A DNA stretch of 15,013 bases from assembly GCA_035528375.1 (NCBI GenBank), contig DATKYS010000054.1:1-15013 (forward strand). Reading direction: 5' to 3'. The notes below the pieces were generated by a model. The model searched no databases. It saw only the letters and a program-made list of their open reading frames with translations, and was not told where the DNA came from. Positions 1,403 through 14,760 of the stretch are shown here, one piece after another (within the stretch, counting starts at the first letter, position 1; every line of letters begins with the position of its first letter). The position numbers and the translations under genes were made by a program. This DNA is from a bacterium (lineage in GTDB: Bacteria > RBG-13-66-14).

Positions 1403-2380
1403 TCACTCCTCCAACCGGACCATCCGGGCCAGGCGGGGAAGCGGCAGGAAGAAACCCCGTAGCTCGCCGTCGGGGGAATAGACGGCGACACCATCGGATT
1501 CGGAGAGCCCGCCGAACTTTTCCAACAGCTCGTTCAGCCCCAGCATCGCGCCATTCTCCAGGACGATCCGGGGAACACCACCGTCGTCTTCCGGCTTTTC
1601 ATCCCTCCGCTCCGCAATGTCCGGCTCCGGTTGCCCATCGGGCTCGGACTCGCAGAGGGATTCGTCCAGGGCGTCGAATCCCGACGCCGGGTGAGGATTA
1701 TCCCGGTTCTTCTCGTCGGCTAGACGGGCGGCCTCCAGTATGAGCTCCATGAGAGGGGTGGATATCCGCGGTCGGCACCTGCTCCGTTGCGTACGAATCC
1801 GGATGTATACCTCCTGCCAGCCCAGGATTTCGAGCGCCGCCTCCCGGGGAGGCAGGTGGCCGAGCCCCGCGTCCAGCAGACGACCCTCGGTGAAGCACAG
1901 AACGCCCCGATCGCCGCCGAAGGACCGGCAGACTTCCACCCGGCAGCTCTTCCGCTCCAGCTCCACCATCTGGACGAAACCGGGGAGGCTCGCCCCCCGC
2001 AGCTGACCCTGCTCGCCCCAATGCCTCACCGTCTTGACTACCACTCGATGAAGATGGTCCATGTCAATGGGCTTCTCCACGTACTCGATGGAGTAGGCCT
2101 CGAAGGTCCGTTCGAGCTCACCGCTGCCGTGGGCGGTCATCACGATGCAGGGTATTTCCGGGTTCTGTTCGAGGACGCGGGTGATGAGCCCGTACCCGTC
2201 CAGGTGGGGCATTTTCAGGTCCGTGACCAGGGTGACGACCTCGTTTTTCTCCAGAACGCGCAGGGCCTCCTCGCCGTCGGCGGCGACGAGGTAACCGATT
2301 CCGTCGTCGTATTGCTCCAGGCCGTCCTTGAGGGACTCCAGGAAGGCGGAGTCGTCGTCAACCAAGAGGACCTTTTTCAT
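1403..2380 (-). CDS. Response regulator with receiver and DUF4388 (PatA-N-like) domains
   Basis: The 325-residue product begins with a complete receiver domain (1-120): acidic cluster Asp8-Asp10, phospho-acceptor Asp54 in TDLKMP, switch Thr82 and Lys103 before Pro. Residues about 127-222 match the DUF4388 pattern (GVLCFTEGRLLDAGLG, then an alpha-helical end with ILGW), an output module found in regulators of motility and other signalling systems. An acidic low-complexity linker (about 225-268) leads to a short tail (LNELLEKFGG...GVAVYSPDGEL, 282-307) that resembles the beginning of a Roadblock/LC7 fold but is too short to be complete. There is no DNA-binding domain, so output is probably by protein contact. 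The ATG at 2380 is chosen because GAGGAG precedes it and the receiver starts right after it. A sigma-54-type promoter lies just upstream. It diverges from the kinase operon and may be one of its targets. Confidence 0.88.
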   Translation of the reverse strand: MKKVLLVDDDSAFLESLKDGLEQYDDGIGYLVAADGEEALRVLEKNEVVTLVTDLKMPHLDGYGLITRVLEQNPEIPCIVMTAHGSGELERTFEAYSIEYVEKPIDMDHLHRVVVKTVRHWGEQGQLRGASLPGFVQMVELERKSCRVEVCRSFGGDRGVLCFTEGRLLDAGLGHLPPREAALEILGWQEVYIRIRTQRSRCRPRISTPLMELILEAARLADEKNRDNPHPASGFDALDESLCESEPDGQPEPDIAERRDEKPEDDGGVPRIVLENGAMLGLNELLEKFGGLSESDGVAVYSPDGELRGFFLPLPRLARMVRLEE

Positions 2381-2402
2381 GGCTCTCCTCACCGGTGGGG
2401 AG

Positions 2403-2418
2403 AGCAATTGCCGTACCA
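2403..2418 (-). promoter_or_regulatory. Sigma-54 (-24/-12) promoter for the receiver-DUF4388 gene
   Basis: The minus strand reads TGGTACGGCAATTGCT, differing from the consensus TGGCACG-N4-TTGCW at one base. GG is at 2417-2416 and GC at 2405-2404 with the required 10 nt between. The expected start of transcription is near 2392, giving a leader of about 12 nt that still holds the GAGGAG ribosome site before the ATG at 2380. Position, orientation and spacing all support it. It would need an enhancer-binding activator, and one is encoded at 13408-14760. Confidence 0.72.
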
Positions 2419-2440
2419 GGGGTATGCGAGGTGTATGACG

Positions 2441-2454
2441 TTGATTGTCAGAGT
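2441..2454 (-). repeat. Left copy of 14-bp inverted repeat (ACTCTGACAATCAA)
   Basis: Minus-strand reading ACTCTGACAATCAA is identical to the plus-strand sequence at 3068-3081. The two copies face outward, this one toward the receiver-DUF4388 gene and the other toward the kinase operon. This copy sits about 50-62 nt upstream of the predicted minus-strand start of transcription. It could be an activator or bending-protein site. The core CTGACAATCAA has a weak dyad (TGA-N3-TCA). Confidence 0.5.
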
Positions 2455-2567
2455 GTTACTTAAAAACGCTAAGATGGACGTCCCCCGTCCTCGGTCAATG
2501 TGCTCCAGCAGAGTAAGGCGCCGCCGCAGTTTGGTGTAGTGGTGTCGGAGGATGACCGCTGACCGGG

Positions 2568-2636
2568 TATATAAATAGATGAATTTATATATTCATAATT
2601 ATCCAATTCATTATGACCGTTTCATTTTGACTCGTT
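2568..2636. promoter_or_regulatory. AT-rich island with inverted repeats between the two sigma-54 promoters
   Basis: This stretch is far richer in A/T than anything around it. It holds a 9-bp inverted repeat, tatataaat (2568-2576) and atttatata (2583-2591), and an overlapping one, ATGAAT (2579-2584) and ATTCAT (2591-2596). The motif (A/T)TTCAT recurs at 2591, 2606 and 2620, about 15 nt apart. It lies about 100-160 nt upstream of the predicted plus-strand start, the usual range for upstream activator or bending-protein sites at sigma-54 promoters. The role is inferred from position and composition. Confidence 0.4.
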
Positions 2637-2703
2637 TATCGTGGGCCAACCGAACCCGGTAACGCAAAACGGCCCCCTAAGCGGATTTTCAAGAGTATCA
2701 AAA

Positions 2704-2719
2704 TGGCACGCTTGTTGCT
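2704..2719 (+). promoter_or_regulatory. Consensus sigma-54 (-24/-12) promoter for the kinase operon
   Basis: The sequence TGGCACGCTTGTTGCT matches the sigma-54 consensus TGGCACG-N4-TTGCW at every defined base, with GG at 2705-2706 and GC at 2717-2718. Transcription would begin near 2730 and run toward the small ORF at 2889 and the kinase gene at 3287, leaving a leader of about 557 nt. An NtrC-family activator is the last gene of the operon, which suggests autoregulation. Confidence 0.8.
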
Positions 2720-2737
2720 TTTATTACCGATGAGCAA

Positions 2738-2802
2738 AGGGGAGACCCCTACACCGCACCTCTTACAGGGAGAAACCGAAGAAAACCCCGCTTTTTAAGA
2801 GG
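2738..2802 (+). other. Structured 5' leader downstream of the sigma-54 promoter
   Basis: Two stems can be drawn just after the predicted transcript start. One is AGGGG (2738-2742) with CCCCT (2746-2750) and loop AGA. The other is CCTCTTA (2759-2765) with TAAGAGG (2796-2802), enclosing 30 nt. I do not recognise a known riboswitch class. It could protect the transcript end or regulate the leader. By-eye pairing only. Confidence 0.3.
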
Positions 2803-2888
2803 CCGGGAAGGACAACGATCGGCGACTCCCTGACCCACTACCCCCGGATAGTCAAGCGTACCATCCGCCAATTCCAGCGAGGGTAATC

Positions 2889-3074
2889 ATGCCGACCAGA
2901 ATGTGCGAAGCAGCCCGAGACTGCGAAAACGAGGTCTTTGCCCCGTGCCCGCGCGGGGACGCGGAGACGTCAGGGACGGTTACCGAGTCCATCCGGGACG
3001 TGTGCGAGGCCATTCGTCTGGTTAAAACGAACGTGGAACGTTTCGTCTCCCGGGCGACCGAGATACTACTCTGA
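2889..3074 (+). CDS. Possible small protein (61 residues) in the kinase operon leader
   Basis: I do not recognise this product. The case for a gene: it lies downstream of the consensus sigma-54 promoter in the same direction; GAGGG sits five bases before its ATG; and about three quarters of its codons end in G or C, like the flanking real genes and unlike the AT-rich DNA upstream. It has four cysteines, three in the first 20 residues (Cys6, Cys12, Cys20) and one at Cys39, and a likely amphipathic helix in the second half (IRDVCEAIRLVKTNVERFV). There is no signal peptide or membrane segment. The stop codon overlaps the right copy of the 14-bp inverted repeat. It may equally be a chance ORF in a long leader. 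Confidence 0.35.
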   Translation: MPTRMCEAARDCENEVFAPCPRGDAETSGTVTESIRDVCEAIRLVKTNVERFVSRATEILL

Positions 3075-3081
3075 CAATCAA
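3068..3081 (+). repeat. Right copy of 14-bp inverted repeat (ACTCTGACAATCAA)
   Basis: Exact inverted copy of 2441-2454, starting in the last codons of the small ORF and pointing toward the kinase gene 205 nt downstream. By a rough count, an exact 14-bp inverted match is unlikely by chance in a region under 1 kb. Confidence 0.5.
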
Positions 3082-3286
3082 TCATCCAAAGTAATGCCAC
3101 CCCCGGTGCCCCATGCCGGCGGAGCTGACGAATCGGAGATTCACCATGAGCAACACCCACAGTTGACGAAAACCACTATTTTTTAAGAGGAGTATGTACC
3201 GCCCGTATTCAGGTAAGGACCAGGGTCCTTGCCTTAATATTTAAAAGAGCGGCACACCTTTTCTCACAATCCCCGGGAGACCGAGC
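3082..3286 (+). other. Gene-free leader before the first kinase gene
   Basis: No convincing gene is present. GAAAACC-N5-TTTTTAAGAGG at 3168-3190 is an imperfect direct copy of 2781-2802 (GAAAACC-N4-TTTTTAAGAGG). A small hairpin (AAGGACC 3215-3221, GGTCCTT 3224-3230) lies before the AT-rich stretch 3233-3246. GGGAG at 3275-3279 is the ribosome site of the kinase gene. Very short ORFs (six codons at 3146, fifteen codons at 3194) exist but are not supported. Confidence 0.4.
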
Positions 3287-6200
3287 ATGGCAAGGGTCCT
3301 CCTCGCAACCGATGACGGAAAGCTGGCCGAAGAGCTGAAGGTGCTGCTGGAGGATTTCGGGCACGCGTTTGCCGGTGTCGTCCCGGCGGACGGCAACCTC
3401 CTGGAGTCCGCCTTAAGCCGGGCCGCGGAGGTCCTCCTCTACGACGCCACGGGCGAAAACGGCTCCCGTCCCATCGTGATACCGGGCGTGCCCGTCCTGA
3501 TCCTGCAAGATGAGGAGGGACCGACAGACCCCGATCACCCCAATCCCTACCGGCTGGTGAAGCCGCTGGACCGACTGGAGCTGAAGTACAAGCTGGAGTG
3601 CGCCGCCTACAACGTCGCCGACACGACGATGACTCCGCCTTCACTCAGTCGGGACGGGGAGGCCGACCTCCCGGATGACTGGTTCCGATCGCTCTACGAG
3701 TACGCCCCGGACGCCTACTACATCATGGACCTTTCGGGCATCTTCGTGGACGGCAACCTCGCGGCCGAGGAGATAACGGGGTATAAAAGGGAGGAGCTCG
3801 TCGGCAGGAACTTCATCAAGGCGAAGCTGATCCCCGTCGGTCAGATCCCCATGGCCGTCCGCTTGTACCAGCAGAACAAGAAGGGTAAAAGTACCGGTCC
3901 CGATGAATTCGTGTTCAGACGGAAATCGGGTAAACAGGTCCCGATCGAGATACGTACCTACCCCATCCTAACCGGCGGCAGGCACCTGGTCCTCGGAATC
4001 GCCCGGGACATCTCCAAGCGCAAGCAGGCCGAGGAAGGCCTGCTCGCCAGCGAGGCGCGCTTCCGCTCCATGTTCGAGCTCTCGCCCGAATCCTTAACAC
4101 TCCTCGACCGTACGGGGAGGGTCATCACCACCAACTCGAAGGTTTACGAGTGGCTGGGTTTCAAGCCGGAAGAGATTATCGGCAAGAGACTTTCCAGCCT
4201 GCCGATACTGACGAAAACGGGGCTCTTGAAAGTGCTCCAGCAGTTCCGCAAACGCATCAAGGGGCTGGACGTCCCGCCCTACGAGGCCGAGTTCCACCAC
4301 AAAGACGGCGGAAAAATTTTCGGCCGGATATCCGCCAACCCCATCCAGGACGAAAAGGGGGAGATATCCTCCGTCCTGGTCCTGATTTCCGACGTCACCG
4401 CCGAGCGGCGGGCCAAGGAGGAACTGCGGGCCTCCCGCGACCTCCTGGACCGCATCCTCAACGGGATGTACGACTCCGTTGCCGTCATCGGCCCCGATTA
4501 CCGGATACGGGAGGTCAACGACAGCTTCCTCCGCACCTACGGCGGCTCCAGGGAAAAAGCCATCGGGAAAACCTGCCACAAGGTAACCCTCGGACAAGAT
4601 GAACCCTGCCCGGAGAGCTGCCACCTGGAGAAGGTGTTCAAAACGGGGAAGCCGAAGACCTTCGAGCATATGCACAGGAACGCCCGCGGCAGGAAGAGGT
4701 CCATCGAAATTTCCCTCTTCCCTCTGCAAAATGCCGAGGGGAAGGTAGAGGGCGTCGTGGAGATGGAGCACGACGTCACCCTGCAAAAAAAGGTGGAGAA
4801 GGCTCTGCGAGAGGAGAGGGACCGGGCGCAGACCTACCTCGACATCGCCGGGACGATAATCCTGGCCCTCGACGCCCAGGGGACGGTGACGCTCATCAAT
4901 CAGAAGGGGTGCGAGGTCCTGGGCTACCCCGAGGCGGAAATTGTGGGGAAAAATTGGATAGAGAACTTCATCCCCGACTGGACGCAGGAACGGGCAAACT
5001 ACACCTTTAACCGGCTCTTGGCCGGAGAGGTGGACCCGCTCAGGTACGTGGAGAACTACCTGATGACCTCCGCCGGAAAGATGCGGCTCATCGCCTGGAA
5101 CAACACCGTCTTAACCGATGAGACCGGCGGCATCGTAGGCACCCTGAGCTCCGGCGAGGATATCACCGAGCGGCGGCTGGCCGAAACGGCGCTGAAGGAG
5201 AGCGAGGAGAAGTTCCGCAATTTCTTCGACAACGCTCCGGCTTACTGCTATATGGTATCGTCGGAGGGTGTTATCCTGGACGTCAACGGAGCTGCGCTCT
5301 CAACCCTGGGCTACGAGAAGGGAGAGCTGGTCGGCGCGCCGTTGAGACGCATCTACGCCCCGGAATCGCACGATAAGATGAAACGGCTTCTCACCCAGTG
5401 GAAAGAGACGGGTACACTCCAGAATGAGGAAATGATCATCCAGACTAAGGGCGGCGATAAAAGGCACGTCTTGTTGAGTGCCACCACGATCCTCGGTCGA
5501 GATGGGAAGCCCATCCACTCCATATCCGTCCAGAGAGACATCACCGACCGCCGGAGAGCGGAGATAGCGCTCCGCGAGAGCGAGGAGAAGTACCGCAACC
5601 TGGTGGAGCGGGCGAACGACGGCATCGTCATCATCCAGGACAAAAATTTCAAGTACGTGAATCCGCGGACGGCCGAGCTCTTGGGATATACTAAAGAGGA
5701 GATGTTGAACACCCCGTTTGTGGACTACATCGAGGACGGGGAAAGAAAGAAGGTTTTCACCACTTACAGGAGCAGGATGGGAGGCGAAAACCCGCCGCCC
5801 GTCTACGAAACGGTAATGTTGCACAAAGAGGGCCGCCGGGTGATGATGGAGGTCAACGCCGGGCTGATCATGTACGGGGGCAAACCGGCGGACCTCGTCT
5901 TCCTCCACGATGTCACGAAAAGTAAGGAGGCCGAGGACGCCCTCCGCGACAGCGAGGCCAAGCTGAAGGCGACCCTGGACTCCCTGCCCGACCTCCTTTT
6001 CGAGGTGGACCACCGGGGGAAAATTTACGACTTCCGCACCCCCGACGCCTCAACGCTCTACGTCGCCCCGGAGAATTTCATCGGGAAAACCGTGGACCAG
6101 GTGATCCCCCCGGAGGCGGCCCGGATCATCATGGACGCCCTCGCCCAGGCCGTGGAGAAGGGGAGCCACCACGGGGCGGTCTATGTGTTGAATATGCCCG

Positions 6201-7363
6201 ATGGTCCCCATTGGCTCGAGCTCTCAATCGCCGTCAGGGGCGACCCGAAGGCACCCGAAGGCCGCCTGATCGTCACCTCCCGCGACGTGACCGTGCGTGT
6301 GAATGCCGAAAAGGCGCTGCGGCTCTCCGAGGAGCAGTACCGCTTCCTCTTCGAGGGCTCGACCACCCTCAACCTCATCATCGGCGTGGACGGCACCCTC
6401 CTGGATTCCAACATCTCCCTCCTGAAGGAGTTCGGCTACACCCGCGAGGAGGTCCGGGGGAGAAACGCGATGGAGTTCGTGGTCGAAAAGGACCGGGAGC
6501 TCATCGCCGGTCTTTTGGATAAATCCAACCGGGGCGAGGACACACCGGAGATAGACGTCGGCATCATCGCCAAGGACGGCTCCGTACGCACCATCCTCTT
6601 CTCCCGGGGGAACGTGGTCCTCACCGAGCACGACCAGCCGGTGACCATCGTCGTCACCGGGATAGACATCACCGAGCGCAACAAGTCCGTGGAGCAGATA
6701 AAGAACGCCCTCCAGGAGAAGGAGGTCCTGCTGAAGGAAATCCACCATCGGGTGAAGAACAACCTGCAGATAATCTCGAGCCTGTTGAACCTGGAAGCCG
6801 GAAAGACGCAGGACGAGAAGGTGTTGGACATCATCTCGACCAGCCAGAACCGGATAAAATCCATGGCGCTCATCCACGAGAAGCTCTACCAGTCGAAAGA
6901 GCTCTCGCGGGTAGACTTCCCCGGTTACATCAGCAGCCTGCTCGACTCTCTCCTCCTCACCTACACCGACGACTCGCGGTTCGTCACCCCTCGGCTCGAC
7001 CTCTCTCCCCTGTACCTGGACATCAGCACGGCCATCCCACTGGCCCTCATCATCAACGAGCTCGTCTCAAACTCACTGGAGCACGCATTCCCCGACGAGC
7101 GCAAGGGCATCATTTCAATCGGATTGAAGGGCGCGGGGAACGGCGACTACACGCTTTTGGTGGCCGACGACGGGGTGGGCATCTCGGACGATCTTGACTT
7201 GGAAAACACGAAAACCTTAGGGTTACAGTTGGTAAATATGCTCACCCAGCAGATAGGCGCCGTCATCGAGATGGACAGGGGTATGCAACCGAATGGAAGG
7301 AAGGGTGCGGAGTTCAGAATAACCTTCTCGGAAAAAACGCCCCAGGTGGCTCATGAAGCGTAG
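3287..7363 (+). CDS. Soluble multi-PAS sensor histidine kinase with N-terminal pseudo-receiver (HisKA_2 core)
   Basis: This 1358-residue sensor kinase has no membrane segment and should act in the cytoplasm. Residues 1-112 resemble a receiver: Asp9-Asp10, Asp53 and Lys92-Pro93 are kept, but the switch Thr is replaced (ILQDEE) and the central part is shortened, so it is probably degenerate. Eight PAS domains follow at about 133-256, 258-383, 385-508, 514-638, 642-765, 768-888, 892-1014 and 1017-1135, most ending in a typical D(I/V)T coiled linker. PAS3 carries Cys430, Cys441 and Cys445. The catalytic core is HisKA_2-type: EIHHRVKNNLQ with likely phospho-acceptor His1154, N-box INELVSN (from 1256), DDGVGI (1294-1299) and TLGLQLV (1310-1316). 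No output receiver is attached. GGGAG seven bases upstream supports the start. Its end overlaps the next gene by 11 nt, indicating translational coupling. Ligands cannot be read from the sequence. Confidence 0.93.
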   Translation: MARVLLATDDGKLAEELKVLLEDFGHAFAGVVPADGNLLESALSRAAEVLLYDATGENGSRPIVIPGVPVLILQDEEGPTDPDHPNPYRLVKPLDRLELKYKLECAAYNVADTTMTPPSLSRDGEADLPDDWFRSLYEYAPDAYYIMDLSGIFVDGNLAAEEITGYKREELVGRNFIKAKLIPVGQIPMAVRLYQQNKKGKSTGPDEFVFRRKSGKQVPIEIRTYPILTGGRHLVLGIARDISKRKQAEEGLLASEARFRSMFELSPESLTLLDRTGRVITTNSKVYEWLGFKPEEIIGKRLSSLPILTKTGLLKVLQQFRKRIKGLDVPPYEAEFHHKDGGKIFGRISANPIQDEKGEISSVLVLISDVTAERRAKEELRASRDLLDRILNGMYDSVAVIGPDYRIREVNDSFLRTYGGSREKAIGKTCHKVTLGQDEPCPESCHLEKVFKTGKPKTFEHMHRNARGRKRSIEISLFPLQNAEGKVEGVVEMEHDVTLQKKVEKALREERDRAQTYLDIAGTIILALDAQGTVTLINQKGCEVLGYPEAEIVGKNWIENFIPDWTQERANYTFNRLLAGEVDPLRYVENYLMTSAGKMRLIAWNNTVLTDETGGIVGTLSSGEDITERRLAETALKESEEKFRNFFDNAPAYCYMVSSEGVILDVNGAALSTLGYEKGELVGAPLRRIYAPESHDKMKRLLTQWKETGTLQNEEMIIQTKGGDKRHVLLSATTILGRDGKPIHSISVQRDITDRRRAEIALRESEEKYRNLVERANDGIVIIQDKNFKYVNPRTAELLGYTKEEMLNTPFVDYIEDGERKKVFTTYRSRMGGENPPPVYETVMLHKEGRRVMMEVNAGLIMYGGKPADLVFLHDVTKSKEAEDALRDSEAKLKATLDSLPDLLFEVDHRGKIYDFRTPDASTLYVAPENFIGKTVDQVIPPEAARIIMDALAQAVEKGSHHGAVYVLNMPDGPHWLELSIAVRGDPKAPEGRLIVTSRDVTVRVNAEKALRLSEEQYRFLFEGSTTLNLIIGVDGTLLDSNISLLKEFGYTREEVRGRNAMEFVVEKDRELIAGLLDKSNRGEDTPEIDVGIIAKDGSVRTILFSRGNVVLTEHDQPVTIVVTGIDITERNKSVEQIKNALQEKEVLLKEIHHRVKNNLQIISSLLNLEAGKTQDEKVLDIISTSQNRIKSMALIHEKLYQSKELSRVDFPGYISSLLDSLLLTYTDDSRFVTPRLDLSPLYLDISTAIPLALIINELVSNSLEHAFPDERKGIISIGLKGAGNGDYTLLVADDGVGISDDLDLENTKTLGLQLVNMLTQQIGAVIEMDRGMQPNGRKGAEFRITFSEKTPQVAHEA

Positions 7364-10142
7364 GCCCCACTTCATCCTCCTCATCGTGCTCACGGGACTC
7401 GCCGTCTGGGTTCTGGACGCCCTGTTCGATTCGCTGTTCCTCGGAAAACCGCTCGCGGACGCCCTGTTCCTCGACTTGTCCGGTTACGAAATCTTCCACC
7501 GACTCGCTGTGTGGCTCTGCTTCTCCGCCCTGTTGTTCCTCCTCAAAAGACTCCTGGAGCGCGGGGGGAAGACGCGGACTGCCCTCAGTGAATCGGAGGA
7601 AATTTACCGCACCTTCGTCGAGAGCACGAACGACGGCGTCGCCATCATTCAGGATTTAATTCTCAGGTACGTCAACCCGAGCCTGGCGAAGATGCTCCGG
7701 CGCACCGCGGAGAAGATGATCGGGACCCGGGCGGCGGATTACGTCCCGGAGTCCGAACTGCCCCGGTTCCTCGAGATGTTTAAAAAACGAATGGCCGGCG
7801 GCGAAGCCCCCCGGCTCTTCGAGAGCGTCCTTGAGCGAAAAGACGGCGAGCCGGTCCACGTCGAGGTCAGCGTGGAGGTGGTCAACTACGAGGGCAAACC
7901 CGCCGACATGGTTTTTTACCGCGACATTTCCGAACGCAAGAGGACCGAGGAGGAGCTCGTAGAATCGGAAAAGAGATACCGCTTCCTGGTGGAGAACACC
8001 CAGGACCTTTTTTACCGAGTCAACCTGGAGGATAAAAGCTACGCCTATCTGAGCCCGGCGTTGGAGAAAATCCTCGGCTACACCACCGAAGAGTTCATCG
8101 AGATGGCGAAAACCGGCGAGTTGATAAAAAGGATTCACCCCGACGACATGCCGATGCTGCTGGCGGATGCTGAAAAGCTGTGGGACAACGGGCGCGGGGC
8201 GCTGGAAAATCCGGTCATCGAGTACCGCCTGCGCCACAAAGACGGCGCGTATCGCTGGCTGTCCGATGCGCGTCGAGTCATTTTTAACGAGACGGGGAAA
8301 GCCACCGCCATCGTGTGGATGTCCCGCGACATCTCCGAAAGGAAGAGGGTCGAGGAGGAACTGAAAAAAACCGAGGAGCGCTTCAAGGCCGTTTTCGACA
8401 ACTCAATCATCGGACTCTACCGGACCACGCCCGACGGAAAAATCCTCATGGGTAACCCGGCCCTGGTGAAGATGCTCGACTACGGTTCCTTCGAGGAACT
8501 GACCCGGCGGAACCTGGAGGAGAATGGGTACGCGCCCCGGTATTCGCGCTCGACCTTCAAGGAGCGCATCGAGCGGGACGGGGTGGTCGTCGGTCTGGAA
8601 TCCGTCTGGCTCAAACGCGACGGCACACCGTTCCACATCCGGGAGAGCGCGAGGGCGGTGCGGGACGCCGACGGCAAGACCCTCTTCTACGAGGGAACAG
8701 TGGAGGACATCACCGATAAAAAACGGGCCGAGGAGGAACTGAAGAAAAGCGAGCTGAGCTACAAGAGCCTCGTCAACAGCGCCGGGGTCGGCATCGCCAC
8801 CACCGACGTCCGCGGCAGATTCACCATGGTCAACGAGCGACTCTGCAATATGTACGGCTACACGGAAGAAGAGCTCCTGGGCACACCATTCGCGGATTAC
8901 CTACATCCGGAGGATAAAAAGCACTTCCTAAAAATATTCTTCAACGCCTTGAAGCAGCCGGAAAATAAGCCTCAAATCGAGTTCAGGGGCATCCGCAAAG
9001 ACGGCCGCACCGTGCACTGCTTCTCCTGCCCGACGCTCACCCTCTTCGGTGGCGAAATCATCCGGTTCAACGCCATCGTCATGGACATTTCCGAGATGAA
9101 AATGGCCGAAGCGGCTTTGCGGGCGTCCGAGGAACGGTACCGGACCTTCACCGAGGAGGCCCAGATCGGAGTGTACATCTACGACAACGGGCGGCTCCTG
9201 TTCGCGAACCCGGCTATGGAGCGTATAACGGGCTATACCAAAGCGGAGCTCCTCGCCGGGGACACCAAGCGGATGGAGGTGCCCGACGAGCAGAAAACCG
9301 AGGAAATCCGGGAGGAAATCCGCCAACAGAAAGACGAGAACATACACCACTACAACATGCACCTTATGCGCAAGGACGGCACAATCGCCATCCTGGAGTT
9401 TCGGACCCACCCCATCGTCTTCGAGGAGCGCACCGTCACCTTCGGCACCTGCATAGACATCACCGAAACGAAGAGGAACGAGGAGAAACTCAGGGAGGTC
9501 ATCGCGGAAAAGGAGGTCCTCCTGAGGGAGATTCACCACCGGGTGACGAACAACCTCCAGATTATCTCCAGCCTCCTGTACCTCGGTTCGGAAGATTTGA
9601 CGGAGTCGGACGCCATCGCGGCGTTCCGGGAGAGCCAGAACCGGATAAAGATAATGGCCCACATACACGAGATGCTCTACCAGTCACAAAACACGGGGAG
9701 CATCTATCTGCCGGTTTACCTGGCGGACATCGTGAGCTCCATCTTCAGCTCCTACTCGACCAATCTGGGCGACCTCGACTACGAGCTTGACATTGACGAC
9801 GTAGACCTCGGCATTGACACCGCCATCCCGCTGGGGCTTTGCGTCAACGAGCTGGTGGCGAACTCCATCGAGCACGCCTTCCCCGACGGTAAGGGTCGGG
9901 TCAGCATCAGCGTGAAAAAGGTCGGCGACGGCCGCCTCAGCTTACGCATCGCGGACTCGGGCATCGGCATCCCCGAAGGGACCGACATCGGCAAGACCAA
10001 GTCATTGGGGCTGCAGTTGGTGAGAATGATGGTTGAGCAGTTACAGGGGGAACTGGAGTTGCGCCGAAAGGACCCCACGGCATTCACCATCACCTTTTCC
10101 CATGGGGGCCCATCCACGCGGGGGGCCCATCTACCCGGTTGA
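7353..10142 (+). CDS. Membrane-anchored five-PAS sensor histidine kinase (HisKA_2 core)
   Basis: The 929-residue product starts with two probable membrane helices (about 7-28 and 50-66) joined by a loop of about 20 residues, so nearly all of the protein faces the cytoplasm. Five PAS domains follow at about 84-206, 208-341, 343-465, 468-592 and 595-710. The second has the PAS_3 look (HPDDMPML, YRLRHKDGAYRWL). A HisKA_2 core follows: EIHHRVTNNLQ with likely His729, N-box VNELVANS (831-838), DSGIGIP (868-874) and SLGLQLV (884-890). The usual Lys after the phospho-His (HRVKNN) is Thr here. PAS1 is visibly similar to PAS6 of the preceding kinase, suggesting duplication. AGGTGG lies just before the ATG, inside the end of the upstream gene. 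No receiver is attached; the receiver of the next protein is the likely partner. Confidence 0.93.
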   Translation: MKRRPHFILLIVLTGLAVWVLDALFDSLFLGKPLADALFLDLSGYEIFHRLAVWLCFSALLFLLKRLLERGGKTRTALSESEEIYRTFVESTNDGVAIIQDLILRYVNPSLAKMLRRTAEKMIGTRAADYVPESELPRFLEMFKKRMAGGEAPRLFESVLERKDGEPVHVEVSVEVVNYEGKPADMVFYRDISERKRTEEELVESEKRYRFLVENTQDLFYRVNLEDKSYAYLSPALEKILGYTTEEFIEMAKTGELIKRIHPDDMPMLLADAEKLWDNGRGALENPVIEYRLRHKDGAYRWLSDARRVIFNETGKATAIVWMSRDISERKRVEEELKKTEERFKAVFDNSIIGLYRTTPDGKILMGNPALVKMLDYGSFEELTRRNLEENGYAPRYSRSTFKERIERDGVVVGLESVWLKRDGTPFHIRESARAVRDADGKTLFYEGTVEDITDKKRAEEELKKSELSYKSLVNSAGVGIATTDVRGRFTMVNERLCNMYGYTEEELLGTPFADYLHPEDKKHFLKIFFNALKQPENKPQIEFRGIRKDGRTVHCFSCPTLTLFGGEIIRFNAIVMDISEMKMAEAALRASEERYRTFTEEAQIGVYIYDNGRLLFANPAMERITGYTKAELLAGDTKRMEVPDEQKTEEIREEIRQQKDENIHHYNMHLMRKDGTIAILEFRTHPIVFEERTVTFGTCIDITETKRNEEKLREVIAEKEVLLREIHHRVTNNLQIISSLLYLGSEDLTESDAIAAFRESQNRIKIMAHIHEMLYQSQNTGSIYLPVYLADIVSSIFSSYSTNLGDLDYELDIDDVDLGIDTAIPLGLCVNELVANSIEHAFPDGKGRVSISVKKVGDGRLSLRIADSGIGIPEGTDIGKTKSLGLQLVRMMVEQLQGELELRRKDPTAFTITFSHGGPSTRGAHLPG

Positions 10143-10156
10143 GGGGGATAGATCCC

Positions 10157-13100
10157 ATGCCAAGTACGAGTCAGAGGGAAACCGAGCCCAAAGGGGAAAA
10201 AGTGAAAGTGCTGGTCGTCGAGGACGAGATGATCGTCGCCCGGGACATCGAGAACCGGTTGAACAACCTCGGGTACACGGTCGTCGGCCTGGCGTCCACC
10301 GGTGAAGAGGCGGTCCGGACCGCCATCGGCGCCATCCCCGATCTTGTGCTCATGGACATCATGCTGAAAGGGGAGATGGACGGCATCCAAGCGGCGGAGA
10401 GGATAAACCGCGAGCTGGACATCCCGGTCGTCTACCTGACGGCCTACGCCGACGAGACGACGCTGGAGCGGGCGAAGATAACCGGTCCCTTCGGCTACAT
10501 CGTCAAGCCTTTCGAGCAGCGCGGTCTGCACACGACCATCGAAACGGCGCTCTACAAACACGAGCTGGAGAAGAAACTGAAGGTCTCCGAGCAGCGCTAC
10601 CGCACGCTCCAGGAGAACCTGCCCATCGGCATCTTCCGGGCGACGCCCGACGGTAGGCTCATCTCCGTGAACCCGGCCATGGTGCAAATGTTCGGGCGTA
10701 CTTCCGCGGACGAGCTCATGGGAATGCGGGTCAACGATTTGTACGCAAGTCAGGCGCACAGACTGGAGCTGAGGAAAGGGCTCCGCATCTCGGGGGTGGT
10801 CACCAACTTCGAGGCCGAGCTCCTGCGCAATGGGGGGGAGAGATTCTGGGCCTCCCTCAACGTCCGAGCCGTCCAGGACGACACGGGGAGAATCCTCTAC
10901 CACGACGGCACGATGCGGGATGTCACGGCGATCAAACGCGCCGAAGAACGCGAGAAGGAGTATCTCCGCGACCTCGCTTTTCTCTCGAAGACGGCGATGG
11001 AGTTCGTGGCTCAGACGCCGGGGGAGAACCTTTACGACTACGTGGCCGAGAAGGTACGGGAGATAGTGCCGGGCTCCCTGGTAGTCGCCGTCACCTCCCT
11101 CGACTTGAAAGATGGCGTTTTCACCCTCCACGCGGTCGCCGGTCTCGGGAAACGCCTGGGCGGCATCCTGAAGGTGCTGGGGCAGGACCCCATCGGGTGG
11201 GAGATACCCTTCACCGATGAAATCGGCGACGTGATGAAAAAGGGCCGCCTGCGCCACATCTCGGCCGAATACGACCGGCACTCGGGGGGAGCGATTTCGA
11301 AGAGCACGGCCGGAGCCCTGCGGAAACTCATGGGAGCAGGCCAAACTTACCTCATGGGCCTCCTCAAGCAGAACACTCTCCTCGGCTCCGTGGTCATCTT
11401 GATGAAGAAGGGGCAAAGAATAACCAACCGGGACATGGTGGAGGCGTTCATCAACCAGGCCGCCGTGGCCTTTATGCGCCAGCGGGCGGAACAGGCGCAA
11501 CACGAGAGCGAAAAGCGCTACCGTCAGCTCTTCCACTACATGAGCATCGGGATTTCCATCCTCGAGGCGGTCGAGGGCGGGAAGGATTTCATTTTCAAGG
11601 ACTTCAACCGAGCGGCCGAGAAGATCAACCGGCTCGAGACAGAGCGTGTCATCGGGGCCAGGATCACCGAAGTATTTCCCGGACTGAAGGATACCGGAAT
11701 CCTCGATGTAATAAAGAAGGTCTGGCGGAAGGGGGGCTCCGAATATCTGCCCGCCTGGCTCTACAAAGATGAGCGCATCTCCGGTTGGCGGGAGAGTTAC
11801 ATCTACAAACTCCCCTCCGGCGAGATAGTCAACGCGTACCAGGACGTCACGGACAAGATACTGGCCGAAGAGGCGCTCAAGAATTCCGAGGAGCGCCACC
11901 GCTCCGTGGTCGAGAACGCCCGGGACGCCATCGTCACCATTGACGATGAAGGTCTCATCTCTTTCTGGAACCGGGCCGCCGAGATGATGTTCGGCTACAC
12001 GGAGGACGAAATCGTGGGCCGATCCCTGACCCAAATAATCCCGAACCGGTTCCAGAACGGCTTCAAGGAAGGCATCCAGGGGTTGAAGACCACGAAGGCC
12101 ACCCTCCTCTCCGGTCAACACCGACCGGTTTCCGCCATGCACAAGGACGGTCACGAATTTTCCGTCGAAATTTCCGTCAAGGGCTGGAAGCAAGGCTCGA
12201 GGCAGTTCTACACGAGCATCATCCGCGACGTCACCGAGCGCATCCGTATGGAGGTGGCGATACTCACCGCCAAACAAGAATGGGAGCGCACCTTCGACAC
12301 CGTGCCCGACATGATTGCCATCCTGGACACGACCGGACGGGTCATCCGGGCCAACCTGTCCCTGGCCGCGCGGCTTTCCATAAACGTCAAAGAACTAATC
12401 GGAAAGCACTTCTACGACGTGCTCTACGGAACGCCGGAACCGCCCGTGGAGTACATGCTGCCGGAGACCTGGGGCTCGGGCGAGAGTTTTTCCCGAGAGC
12501 TTCATCTGGCGCACCTCGACGGAGACTTCTCCCTTACGCTCACGCCGCGCTACGACCCGTCCAACCAGCTCGTCGGGGCCGTCTTCGTCGGTCGCGACAT
12601 CACCGTCCATCGGCGCGCCGATGAGGCCCTCCGGCGTCAGGCCATGATCAACCAGGCCGAGCACATCTTCAGCTCCATCCGCCACGAGATGGGAAACGCC
12701 CTCAACACGCTGAAAACCACGCTTTCCGTCCTCTGGAAGAACTACCTGAACTTCGACCCCGAAAAGAGGGAAACCTATTTCATACGCTGCCTGGACACCT
12801 TCAAGGTGGCCGAGCGGCTGCTCGGCGTGCTGAAGGAGTACCAGAAGTTCGACAAGCTGGAGCTCAACCCGATCTACCTGGACCGGTTCCTCCAGGAGAA
12901 ATCAGGCCTGTTCGTGGACCTGGCGCGTCACTCCGACGTGGACTGCGAGGTGGACATGTCCTTCTCCGACGTGCGGATCAACGTGGACAGGGACGCCCTG
13001 ATCCAGGTTCTCTTGAACGTCGTGGACAATGCCATAGCCGCCACCCGCAACGCGAAAAACCCCCTCGTCTCCATCGGTTGCCGGCCGCTGTACATGCGCC

Positions 13101-13357
13101 CGAAGGGGAACGACTGGGCCGTCATCACCGTGGCCGACAACGGGCGCGGGATTCCGGAAGACGAGCTGACGAAGGTCTTCACCCCGCTCTTCACCACCAA
13201 ACCGGAGGGGTCGGGCCTGGGGATGGCCATCGTCCAGAAGAGGATGATGCAGATGGGCGGCGAGGCGAAGATCCAGAGCAAACCCAACCAGGGGACGACC
13301 GTGGAGCTGTGGCTCCCCCTCTACTCGGGGGAGAAGGCCACGAAGCTCCCCGTTTGA
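10157..13357 (+). CDS. Hybrid signalling protein: receiver, PAS, GAF, three PAS, NtrB-like kinase core
   Basis: The 1066-residue product opens with an intact receiver (15-135): Glu22-Asp23, Asp67 in LMDIML, Thr95, Lys117-Pro118. PAS1 spans about 145-265. A GAF-like region follows (about 267-445), then PAS2 (453-572), PAS3 (577-698) and PAS4 (705-825). The kinase core has SSIRHEMGNALNTL with likely phospho-acceptor His843, N-box LLNVVDNAI (952-960), ADNGRGIP (993-1000) and EGSGLGMAI (1017-1025), resembling NtrB-type kinases rather than the HisKA_2 type of the two genes upstream. The receiver could accept phosphate from those two, and the C-terminal core could phosphorylate the NtrC-like regulator next door. 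The ATG at 10157 is preferred because GAGGGGG lies nine bases upstream; a TTG at 10139 would add six residues. PAS4 resembles the cysteine PAS of the first kinase but lacks its cysteines. Confidence 0.92.
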   Translation: MPSTSQRETEPKGEKVKVLVVEDEMIVARDIENRLNNLGYTVVGLASTGEEAVRTAIGAIPDLVLMDIMLKGEMDGIQAAERINRELDIPVVYLTAYADETTLERAKITGPFGYIVKPFEQRGLHTTIETALYKHELEKKLKVSEQRYRTLQENLPIGIFRATPDGRLISVNPAMVQMFGRTSADELMGMRVNDLYASQAHRLELRKGLRISGVVTNFEAELLRNGGERFWASLNVRAVQDDTGRILYHDGTMRDVTAIKRAEEREKEYLRDLAFLSKTAMEFVAQTPGENLYDYVAEKVREIVPGSLVVAVTSLDLKDGVFTLHAVAGLGKRLGGILKVLGQDPIGWEIPFTDEIGDVMKKGRLRHISAEYDRHSGGAISKSTAGALRKLMGAGQTYLMGLLKQNTLLGSVVILMKKGQRITNRDMVEAFINQAAVAFMRQRAEQAQHESEKRYRQLFHYMSIGISILEAVEGGKDFIFKDFNRAAEKINRLETERVIGARITEVFPGLKDTGILDVIKKVWRKGGSEYLPAWLYKDERISGWRESYIYKLPSGEIVNAYQDVTDKILAEEALKNSEERHRSVVENARDAIVTIDDEGLISFWNRAAEMMFGYTEDEIVGRSLTQIIPNRFQNGFKEGIQGLKTTKATLLSGQHRPVSAMHKDGHEFSVEISVKGWKQGSRQFYTSIIRDVTERIRMEVAILTAKQEWERTFDTVPDMIAILDTTGRVIRANLSLAARLSINVKELIGKHFYDVLYGTPEPPVEYMLPETWGSGESFSRELHLAHLDGDFSLTLTPRYDPSNQLVGAVFVGRDITVHRRADEALRRQAMINQAEHIFSSIRHEMGNALNTLKTTLSVLWKNYLNFDPEKRETYFIRCLDTFKVAERLLGVLKEYQKFDKLELNPIYLDRFLQEKSGLFVDLARHSDVDCEVDMSFSDVRINVDRDALIQVLLNVVDNAIAATRNAKNPLVSIGCRPLYMRPKGNDWAVITVADNGRGIPEDELTKVFTPLFTTKPEGSGLGMAIVQKRMMQMGGEAKIQSKPNQGTTVELWLPLYSGEKATKLPV

Positions 13358-13375
13358 CGTTTATCAATCCAACAT

Positions 13376-13391
13376 CGGTCCCCCGGGACCG
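13376..13391 (+). repeat. Hairpin in the gap between the hybrid kinase and the NtrC-like gene
   Basis: Arms CGGTCCC (13376-13382) and GGGACCG (13385-13391) face each other in the only sizeable gap (50 nt) inside the operon, six bases before the GAGGTGG ribosome site of the activator gene. No T-run follows, so it is not a terminator. It might set relative expression by RNA processing or be a protein site. Confidence 0.4.
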
Positions 13392-13407
13392 CGTTTGAGG
13401 TGGCACG

Positions 13408-14760
13408 ATGAAGCTGCGCCCAAAAGTTCTTCTCGTTGACGACGATTTAGGTTTCTGCGAAACGGCCTGCGACGGTCTTCTGCAAGAAGGCTACGACGCC
13501 CGCTTCGCCAACACGGGGAGCGAGGGGGTTGAGCTATTCAACACCTGGCACCCCGACGTCGTTCTCCTGGACCAGATTCTGCCCGACACGAACGGGCTGG
13601 AGCTCTCCCGCCAGTTCATCCAAACCGACCCCGGGGTGAAGATCATCTTCATCACGGCGTACGGCTCCATCTCCGACGCCGTCGAGGCGGTGAAGACCGG
13701 GGCCTACGACTACCTGACCAAGCCGCTGGAGATGGAGGAATTCTACCTCTCCGTGGCAAAGGCCTTCGAGCTCATCGAGCTGGAACGGCAGCAGCAGATA
13801 CGCAGCTTCCAACTCTCCCACACTCCCGCCAACGATCAACTCACGGGCAACTCGCCCGCCCTGCGGCGCATTGACCGCCTGGTTTCCCTGGCCGCCCAAA
13901 GCGATTCCACCCTTTTAATCACCGGCGAGACCGGGGTGGGGAAAGGGGTGGTGGCGCGGGCCATCCACCGCTTGAGCGACCGCGGCGAGGAGCTGCTCAC
14001 GCTCAACTGCTCGGCGATTCCCGAGACCCTCATCGAGAGTGAGCTCTTCGGCCACGAGAAGGGCGCCTTTACCGGTGCGGCCAACCGCCGCAAGGGCGTC
14101 TTCGAGCTGGCCACGGGGGGCAGCCTGCTCCTGGACGAGATAGCCGAGATGCCCATCCGCCTACAGAGCAAACTCCTAACCGTGCTGGAGGATAGAAAAA
14201 TCCGCCGACTGGGCGGTTCCGTCGAAATTCCACTGAACGTGAGGGTCATCGCAACGACGAACCGCAACCTGGTCGAGGAGATAAAGCAGGGCCGTTTCCG
14301 GGAGGACCTCTACTACCGCCTGGCGGTCATCACCATCCACGTTCCGCCGCTGCGCGAGCGCCCCCAGGACATCCGGCCGCTCTGTCGCAACCTCCTGCAC
14401 CGGTTGACGGACGGCGCCTACACCGACCTGCCCCCGGAGCAGTTGCAGGTCCTGGAGGCTTACCACTGGCCGGGAAACGTGCGCGAGCTGCGTAACGTGC
14501 TGGAGAGGGCGCTGATCCTAGCCGGCGGCGGAGAACCGGACCCCGCGGTGCTGATAGAGCTCGTCGCGGCGAAGGCCCCCGCCATGATGAAGGACGACGA
14601 AAAGCCGATCCGCCCCCTGGAACTGGTGGAGCGGGAGCACATCGAGCGCGCCCTGTCCCTCTGCGGGGACAACAAGACCAAGGCGGCGAAGATACTGGGG
14701 ATATCCCTCTCCACCCTGCGGCGCCGCCTGAGCGACTACGACGGTTCCAACGGCCCATAG
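13408..14760 (+). CDS. NtrC-family sigma-54-dependent response regulator
   Basis: This 450-residue protein should bind upstream of sigma-54 promoters and use ATP to open the closed polymerase complex. The receiver (1-122) has Asp11-Asp12, phospho-acceptor Asp55, Thr83 and Lys105-Pro106. The AAA+ domain (about 144-375) shows Walker A GETGVGKG (173-180), the sigma-54 contact loop GAFTGA (219-224), Walker B LLLDE (240-244) and RFREDLYYRL with the arginine fingers (297-306), then WPGNVREL (354-361). The C-terminus is a Fis-type helix-turn-helix (about 405-443, NKTKAAKILGISLSTLRRRL). All parts needed for function are intact. Length is typical of the family. The GAGGTGG site (13397-13403) sets the start. 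It ends the kinase operon, just before a terminator. The two sigma-54 promoters at 2403-2418 and 2704-2719 are natural candidate targets, which is inference. Confidence 0.96.
   Translation: MKLRPKVLLVDDDLGFCETACDGLLQEGYDARFANTGSEGVELFNTWHPDVVLLDQILPDTNGLELSRQFIQTDPGVKIIFITAYGSISDAVEAVKTGAYDYLTKPLEMEEFYLSVAKAFELIELERQQQIRSFQLSHTPANDQLTGNSPALRRIDRLVSLAAQSDSTLLITGETGVGKGVVARAIHRLSDRGEELLTLNCSAIPETLIESELFGHEKGAFTGAANRRKGVFELATGGSLLLDEIAEMPIRLQSKLLTVLEDRKIRRLGGSVEIPLNVRVIATTNRNLVEEIKQGRFREDLYYRLAVITIHVPPLRERPQDIRPLCRNLLHRLTDGAYTDLPPEQLQVLEAYHWPGNVRELRNVLERALILAGGGEPDPAVLIELVAAKAPAMMKDDEKPIRPLELVEREHIERALSLCGDNKTKAAKILGISLSTLRRRLSDYDGSNGP

Follow-up and report, generated by a model that had tools for sequence, protein, structure and literature searches.

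The window, that is, the whole stretch of DNA analysed here, comprises 15,013 nucleotides from an uncultured bacterium of Candidatus Coatesbacteria (named relatives' records, e.g. RBG_13_66_14). The genome to which it belongs (G000) measures 2.63 Mb, with an estimated completeness of 100%. It was compared with three congeneric genomes (G001, G002 and G003), giving four genomes of one genus, and with three other genera of the same family (G004, G005 and G006), whose receiver-DUF4388 proteins share 46-48% identity with those of the window's genus.

Genes of the divergent locus

On the minus strand, positions 1403-2380 encode a response regulator of 325 residues, composed of a receiver (Pfam Response_reg, PF00072, 5.9e-20) and a DUF4388 domain (PF14332, 4e-12), which we take to be the PATAN domain. 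The phospho-acceptor Asp54, Thr82 and Lys103 are kept in all six aligned sequences of this protein. A CheY-like receiver combined with a PATAN-type domain is also found in the receiver-PATAN regulators PixG, PixE and LsiR of Synechocystis. The Coatesbacteria protein differs from them in that the receiver comes first, followed by DUF4388, and in its putative sigma-54 control. An association of receiver-PATAN proteins with the machinery of type IV pili is known from Synechocystis, cyanobacterial members acting on the pilus motor or on cell polarity (PMC7690835), and, by analogy, the control of surface motility or polarity would be a reasonable guess for the output of the Coatesbacteria regulator.

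On the plus strand, three multi-PAS kinases and an activator occupy positions 3287-14760, separated by intergenic gaps that are small or negative (50 bp before the activator), which is consistent with a single operon. According to Pfam, the first two genes code for multi-PAS histidine kinases of the HisKA_2/HWE type (3287-7363) and the HisKA_2 type (7353-10142), and the third for a receiver-PAS histidine kinase with an AtoS-like C-terminus (10157-13357). The last gene, at 13408-14760, had been described in the first-pass annotation as coding for an NtrC-family protein, and domain searches agree, with a receiver bearing Asp55, an AAA+ domain with its GAFTGA loop, and a Fis-type helix-turn-helix. 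Asp55 and GAFTGA are invariant in five activator orthologues, which places the protein in the NtrC class. The best NCBIfam matches are AtoC for the activator and AtoS for the adjacent kinase, both well below the equivalog cut-offs (for the activator, 376.6 bits versus 714), and the kinase at 10157-13357 is likely to be the cognate kinase of the activator. The genome contains 10 matches to PF00158, some of which are distant AAA+ proteins, and several sigma-54 activators are encoded besides that at 13408-14760.

A leader of more than 500 bases separates the plus-strand promoter from the first kinase. The first reading frame in the predicted transcript is an ORF of 61 codons (2889-3074, plus strand), maintained in G002 and G003 and broken in G001 by a stop codon; a Pfam search with it gave no match. 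Its status as a firmly conserved gene is unproven, given this early stop and the 12 synonymous versus 19 non-synonymous codon differences between G000 and G002. Further along, just before the first kinase, lies a terminator-like hairpin (3211-3234) formed by a 10-bp stem followed by TAATATTTAA. It is largely conserved in G001, and is possibly an attenuator. The leader also contains a very conserved block, GGGAAGGACAACGATCGGCGACTCCC, at 2803-2836, which might represent an RNA element or a protein site; an Rfam search of positions 2300-3400 returned no match even at E up to 1.

The two sigma-54 boxes

Between the divergent genes lie two sigma-54 -24/-12 boxes, TGGTACGGCAATTGCT at 2403-2418 on the minus strand, preceding the receiver-DUF4388 gene with a predicted transcript start near 2392, and TGGCACGCTTGTTGCT at 2704-2719 on the plus strand, preceding the PAS-kinase/activator operon with a predicted start near 2730. 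Both present the TGG-N10-GC core within the consensus TGGCACG-N4-TTGCW, with no mismatch to TGGYACGNNNNTTGCW, and are thus exact boxes, at the positions given in the first-pass annotation. The only other match in the window carries two mismatches and falls within coding sequence. The annotation also had each box facing the gene next to it. The orientation is as described, but the nearest plus-strand reading frame is the 61-codon ORF rather than the kinase at 3287, which lies about 570 bp from its box. On the other side, a short leader containing GAGGAG separates the minus box from the ATG of the receiver-DUF4388 gene.

The rarity of the boxes was gauged by genome-wide pattern counts of TGGYACGNNNNTTGCW, with the reversed pattern as a control. 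Eight perfect matches occur in the 2.63 Mb of the window's genome, where about one is expected from base composition, and the reversed pattern has none. Two of the eight form the divergent pair in a single intergenic region, each directed to its flanking gene. The genome also encodes rpoN (Sigma54_DBD, E 1.6e-55, contig C113), and both boxes are kept in the three congeneric genomes, as the annotation's reading implied. Within the genus, the 16-mer is matched 4-8 times per genome, and the idea that it represents a genome-wide repeat there was rejected on these low counts.

With regard to conservation, the boxes occupy matching positions in each of the four congeneric genomes, 299-311 bp apart. 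They read TGGCACACTTGTTGCT and TGGTACGACAATTGCT in both G002 and G003, and G001 shows one further change in each box. In the four-genome alignment of the intergenic region, 14 of the 16 columns of each box are invariant, against a regional mean of 5.9 per 16-column window; this is the top value of any such window, matched only by the block of the plus leader at about 2818-2836. Outside the genus, a perfect box precedes the receiver-DUF4388 start codon by 26-30 bp in G004, G005 and G006, where the neighbours differ. Among receiver-DUF4388 relatives from other phyla, no sigma-54 box (at least 9/12) was found within 300 bp upstream.

A simple scan of the intergenic region detects one sigma-70-like site, ATGAAA-N16-GATAAT (9/12, minus strand, 2625-2598), which could be invoked if the boxes were chance matches and transcription proceeded from sigma-70-type promoters. 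Such an explanation is scarcely credible in view of the genome-wide rarity of the boxes, with an empty control, and of their conservation across the genus and, for the receiver-DUF4388 gene, across the family.

Palindromes between the boxes and the proposed circuit

Comparison of the upstream regions yielded an inverted repeat with the consensus GTTCA-N3-TGAAC. In the window, it is represented at 2606-2632 by tandem imperfect palindromes, ATTCATTATGACC (2606-2618) and TTTCATTTTGACT (2620-2632), conserved in the four congeneric genomes, with a period of 14 bp and matches of 8/10 and about 7/10. These sites lie upstream of both boxes, the plus box being 72-98 bp and the minus box 187-214 bp away. 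They are of the type expected for the enhancer of an AAA+ activator, and we regard them as a putative enhancer (UAS) shared by both promoters. The three other genera all carry palindromes ahead of the receiver-DUF4388 box, at a distance of 74-129 bp, namely two perfect copies and one of 9/10 in G005, one perfect and one of 9/10 in G006, and one of 9/10 with a weaker one in G004. When family sequence was divided into 4590 tiles of 80 bp, only two contained a 10/10 match, a figure whose associated p-values are post hoc since the palindrome was recognised by eye before scoring, and all the 10/10 copies in the loci scanned are those upstream of receiver-DUF4388 promoters. A search of the window's genome with the pair pattern gave seven matches, including the window site, versus one for the control. 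The motif was not found at the groESL, hsp20, RpoS-like sigma gene and gdhA boxes of the same genome, which score at background level. On contig C20, a 9/10 palindrome at a comparable distance before a secreted-protein gene could represent an additional target or a chance occurrence.

A second conserved palindrome, TGCTCCAGCA, forms an invariant block in the four genomes at 2501-2510, 82 bp upstream of the minus box, and is possibly a second protein site. Its position raises the question of whether the tandem sites at 2606-2632 serve the plus promoter alone, the minus promoter relying on 2501-2510. The distances are compatible with this division, the tandem sites being much closer to the plus box than to the minus box and the invariant block closer still to the latter than they are. 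In the other genera, however, the tandem motif precedes the receiver-DUF4388 gene itself, and TGCTCCAGCA is absent from the G004, G005 and G006 loci compared, so that separate sites appear unlikely, although they are the most serious of the alternatives.

The gene order in the sister genera bears on the identity of the activator. In G005, the box is followed by one same-strand run comprising the receiver-DUF4388 gene, a small ORF, a PAS kinase and the activator, and in G006 a same-strand run contains the receiver-DUF4388 gene, several other genes, a PAS kinase of 3141 residues and the activator. Kinase, activator and receiver-DUF4388 gene are thus linked in every genus with a long enough contig; in the window's genus, the linkage takes the divergent form. 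As a side observation, the 3141-residue PAS histidine kinase of G006 (L154:2728-12150) is a single protein that stands in for the multiple kinases found in the window operon. It could still be argued that the sigma-54 promoters are genuine and that one or both are controlled by an activator encoded elsewhere, the in-operon activator having other targets: the genome encodes several sigma-54 activators, and the separate palindrome at 2501-2510 lies at a classical distance from the minus box. The linkage of the in-operon activator to the receiver-DUF4388 gene in other genera, and a putative enhancer motif that the other sigma-54 targets tested do not share, speak against this possibility, which we hold to be improbable, slightly more so than separate sites for the two promoters.

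We therefore favour, with good though not full confidence, a divergent sigma-54 region in which one enhancer serves both promoters and which is autoregulated by the activator of its own operon. The multi-PAS kinases would sense a signal, upon which the AtoS-like kinase would phosphorylate the NtrC-class activator, the product of the last gene of the plus operon. This activator, one of several in the genome, would then bind the tandem enhancer at 2606-2632 and loop to sigma-54 RNA polymerase at both boxes, including the minus box 187 bp away, thereby opening both promoters. The expected outcome would be positive autoregulation of the sensor/activator operon together with co-induction of the receiver-DUF4388 protein, which is probably itself phosphorylated by the same kinases as an output of the system. 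The observations underlying this circuit are the identity, rarity and conservation of the boxes, the presence of rpoN, the domains of the activator, the conservation of the enhancer and its absence from the other sites tested, and the linkage in sister genera. Counting against it are a minus promoter farther from the enhancer than usual, with the conserved 2501-2510 block nearer to that box, as well as the other sigma-54 activators of the genome, the imperfect enhancer copies of the window's own genus and the post hoc p-values. The first-pass annotation had proposed that the protein at 13408-14760 activates both promoters; sister-genus linkage and the palindrome, specific to this circuit among the sites tested, lend support to this proposal, the control itself being deduced from sequence. 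On the whole, its regulatory interpretation is largely supported.

Divergent sigma-54 promoters with a common enhancer are an established layout. The best reading of the locus is an AtoSC-like autoregulated two-component system, split in the window's genus into a divergent pair. As in AtoS-AtoC and other NtrC-class systems, a receiver-AAA+(GAFTGA)-Fis activator adjoins a PAS histidine kinase, and a palindromic enhancer, here a putative one, lies upstream of -24/-12 boxes. Compared with AtoS-AtoC, the window operon has several multi-PAS kinases, a divergent second output gene that codes for a response regulator, and GTTCA-N3-TGAAC as its enhancer sequence. The circuit would thus be predicted to work like AtoSC or NtrBC without its activator belonging to the AtoC equivalog. 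The type of circuit is itself already known and well conserved, and the locus adds a new case to it; our literature search on DUF4388, on Coatesbacteria and sigma-54, and on divergent sigma-54 promoters with a shared enhancer brought up no precedent for it. The locus provides a sigma-54 circuit amenable to experiment in a candidate phylum on which the open-access literature searched yielded no sigma-54 paper, together with predictions of the motif bound by the activator and of an activator-target pair, and with a PATAN-type output protein found throughout the family. The enhancer motif would also make the regulon searchable in other Coatesbacteria genomes.

Boxes elsewhere in the family

In two of the sister genera, perfect boxes are far more numerous, amounting to 165 in G004 and 139 in G006, with controls of 0-2. 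The majority of the boxes examined form the arms of inverted repeats located between genes, at a regular arm spacing of 55-60 bp. The common 16-mer arm, TGGCACG-T/G-TT-C/T-TTGCA, differs between the two genomes by two letters, at non-consensus positions, and the flanks and interior of the repeats differ as well. Since the G004 repeats vary no more at spacer positions than at consensus positions, they could be the terminal repeats of a mobile element at least as readily as sigma-54 sites. A large sigma-54 regulon is not favoured for these boxes, since they are regularly spaced inverted-repeat arms, the 34 sampled all lie outside genes, divergent pairs of genes are under-represented, and the G004 spacer is as conserved as the consensus. 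A REPIN mobilised by a Y1 transposase is not supported either, with no Y1_Tnp match in G004 or G006. One could also imagine that the locus is a coherent feed-forward device, in which the kinase cluster phosphorylates the activator and then its product, the receiver-DUF4388 protein, and that the boxes amplified in sister genera titrate sigma-54 RNA polymerase or act as genome-wide promoters; this combination seems to us very doubtful.

In the window's own genome, other perfect boxes are found just upstream of groESL (L157:3075-3090), of the genes for an Hsp20-type protein (L158:5534-5549) and an RpoS-like sigma factor (L156:7082-7097), and of the glutamate dehydrogenase gene gdhA (L159:7347-7362). 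Of these 16-mers, those belonging to groESL, the sigma-factor gene and the small heat-shock gene were also detected in one or two congeneric genomes, and in G004 the Hsp20 gene is likewise preceded by a box (L298:4230). It may be that sigma-54 governs heat-shock genes and a sigma cascade in the window's genus. Of note, many predicted secreted proteins end in a shared C-terminal W-G-x-I-K-x-x-F motif (L162, L158, L149:15825-16803), which is possibly a sorting tag of Coatesbacteria.
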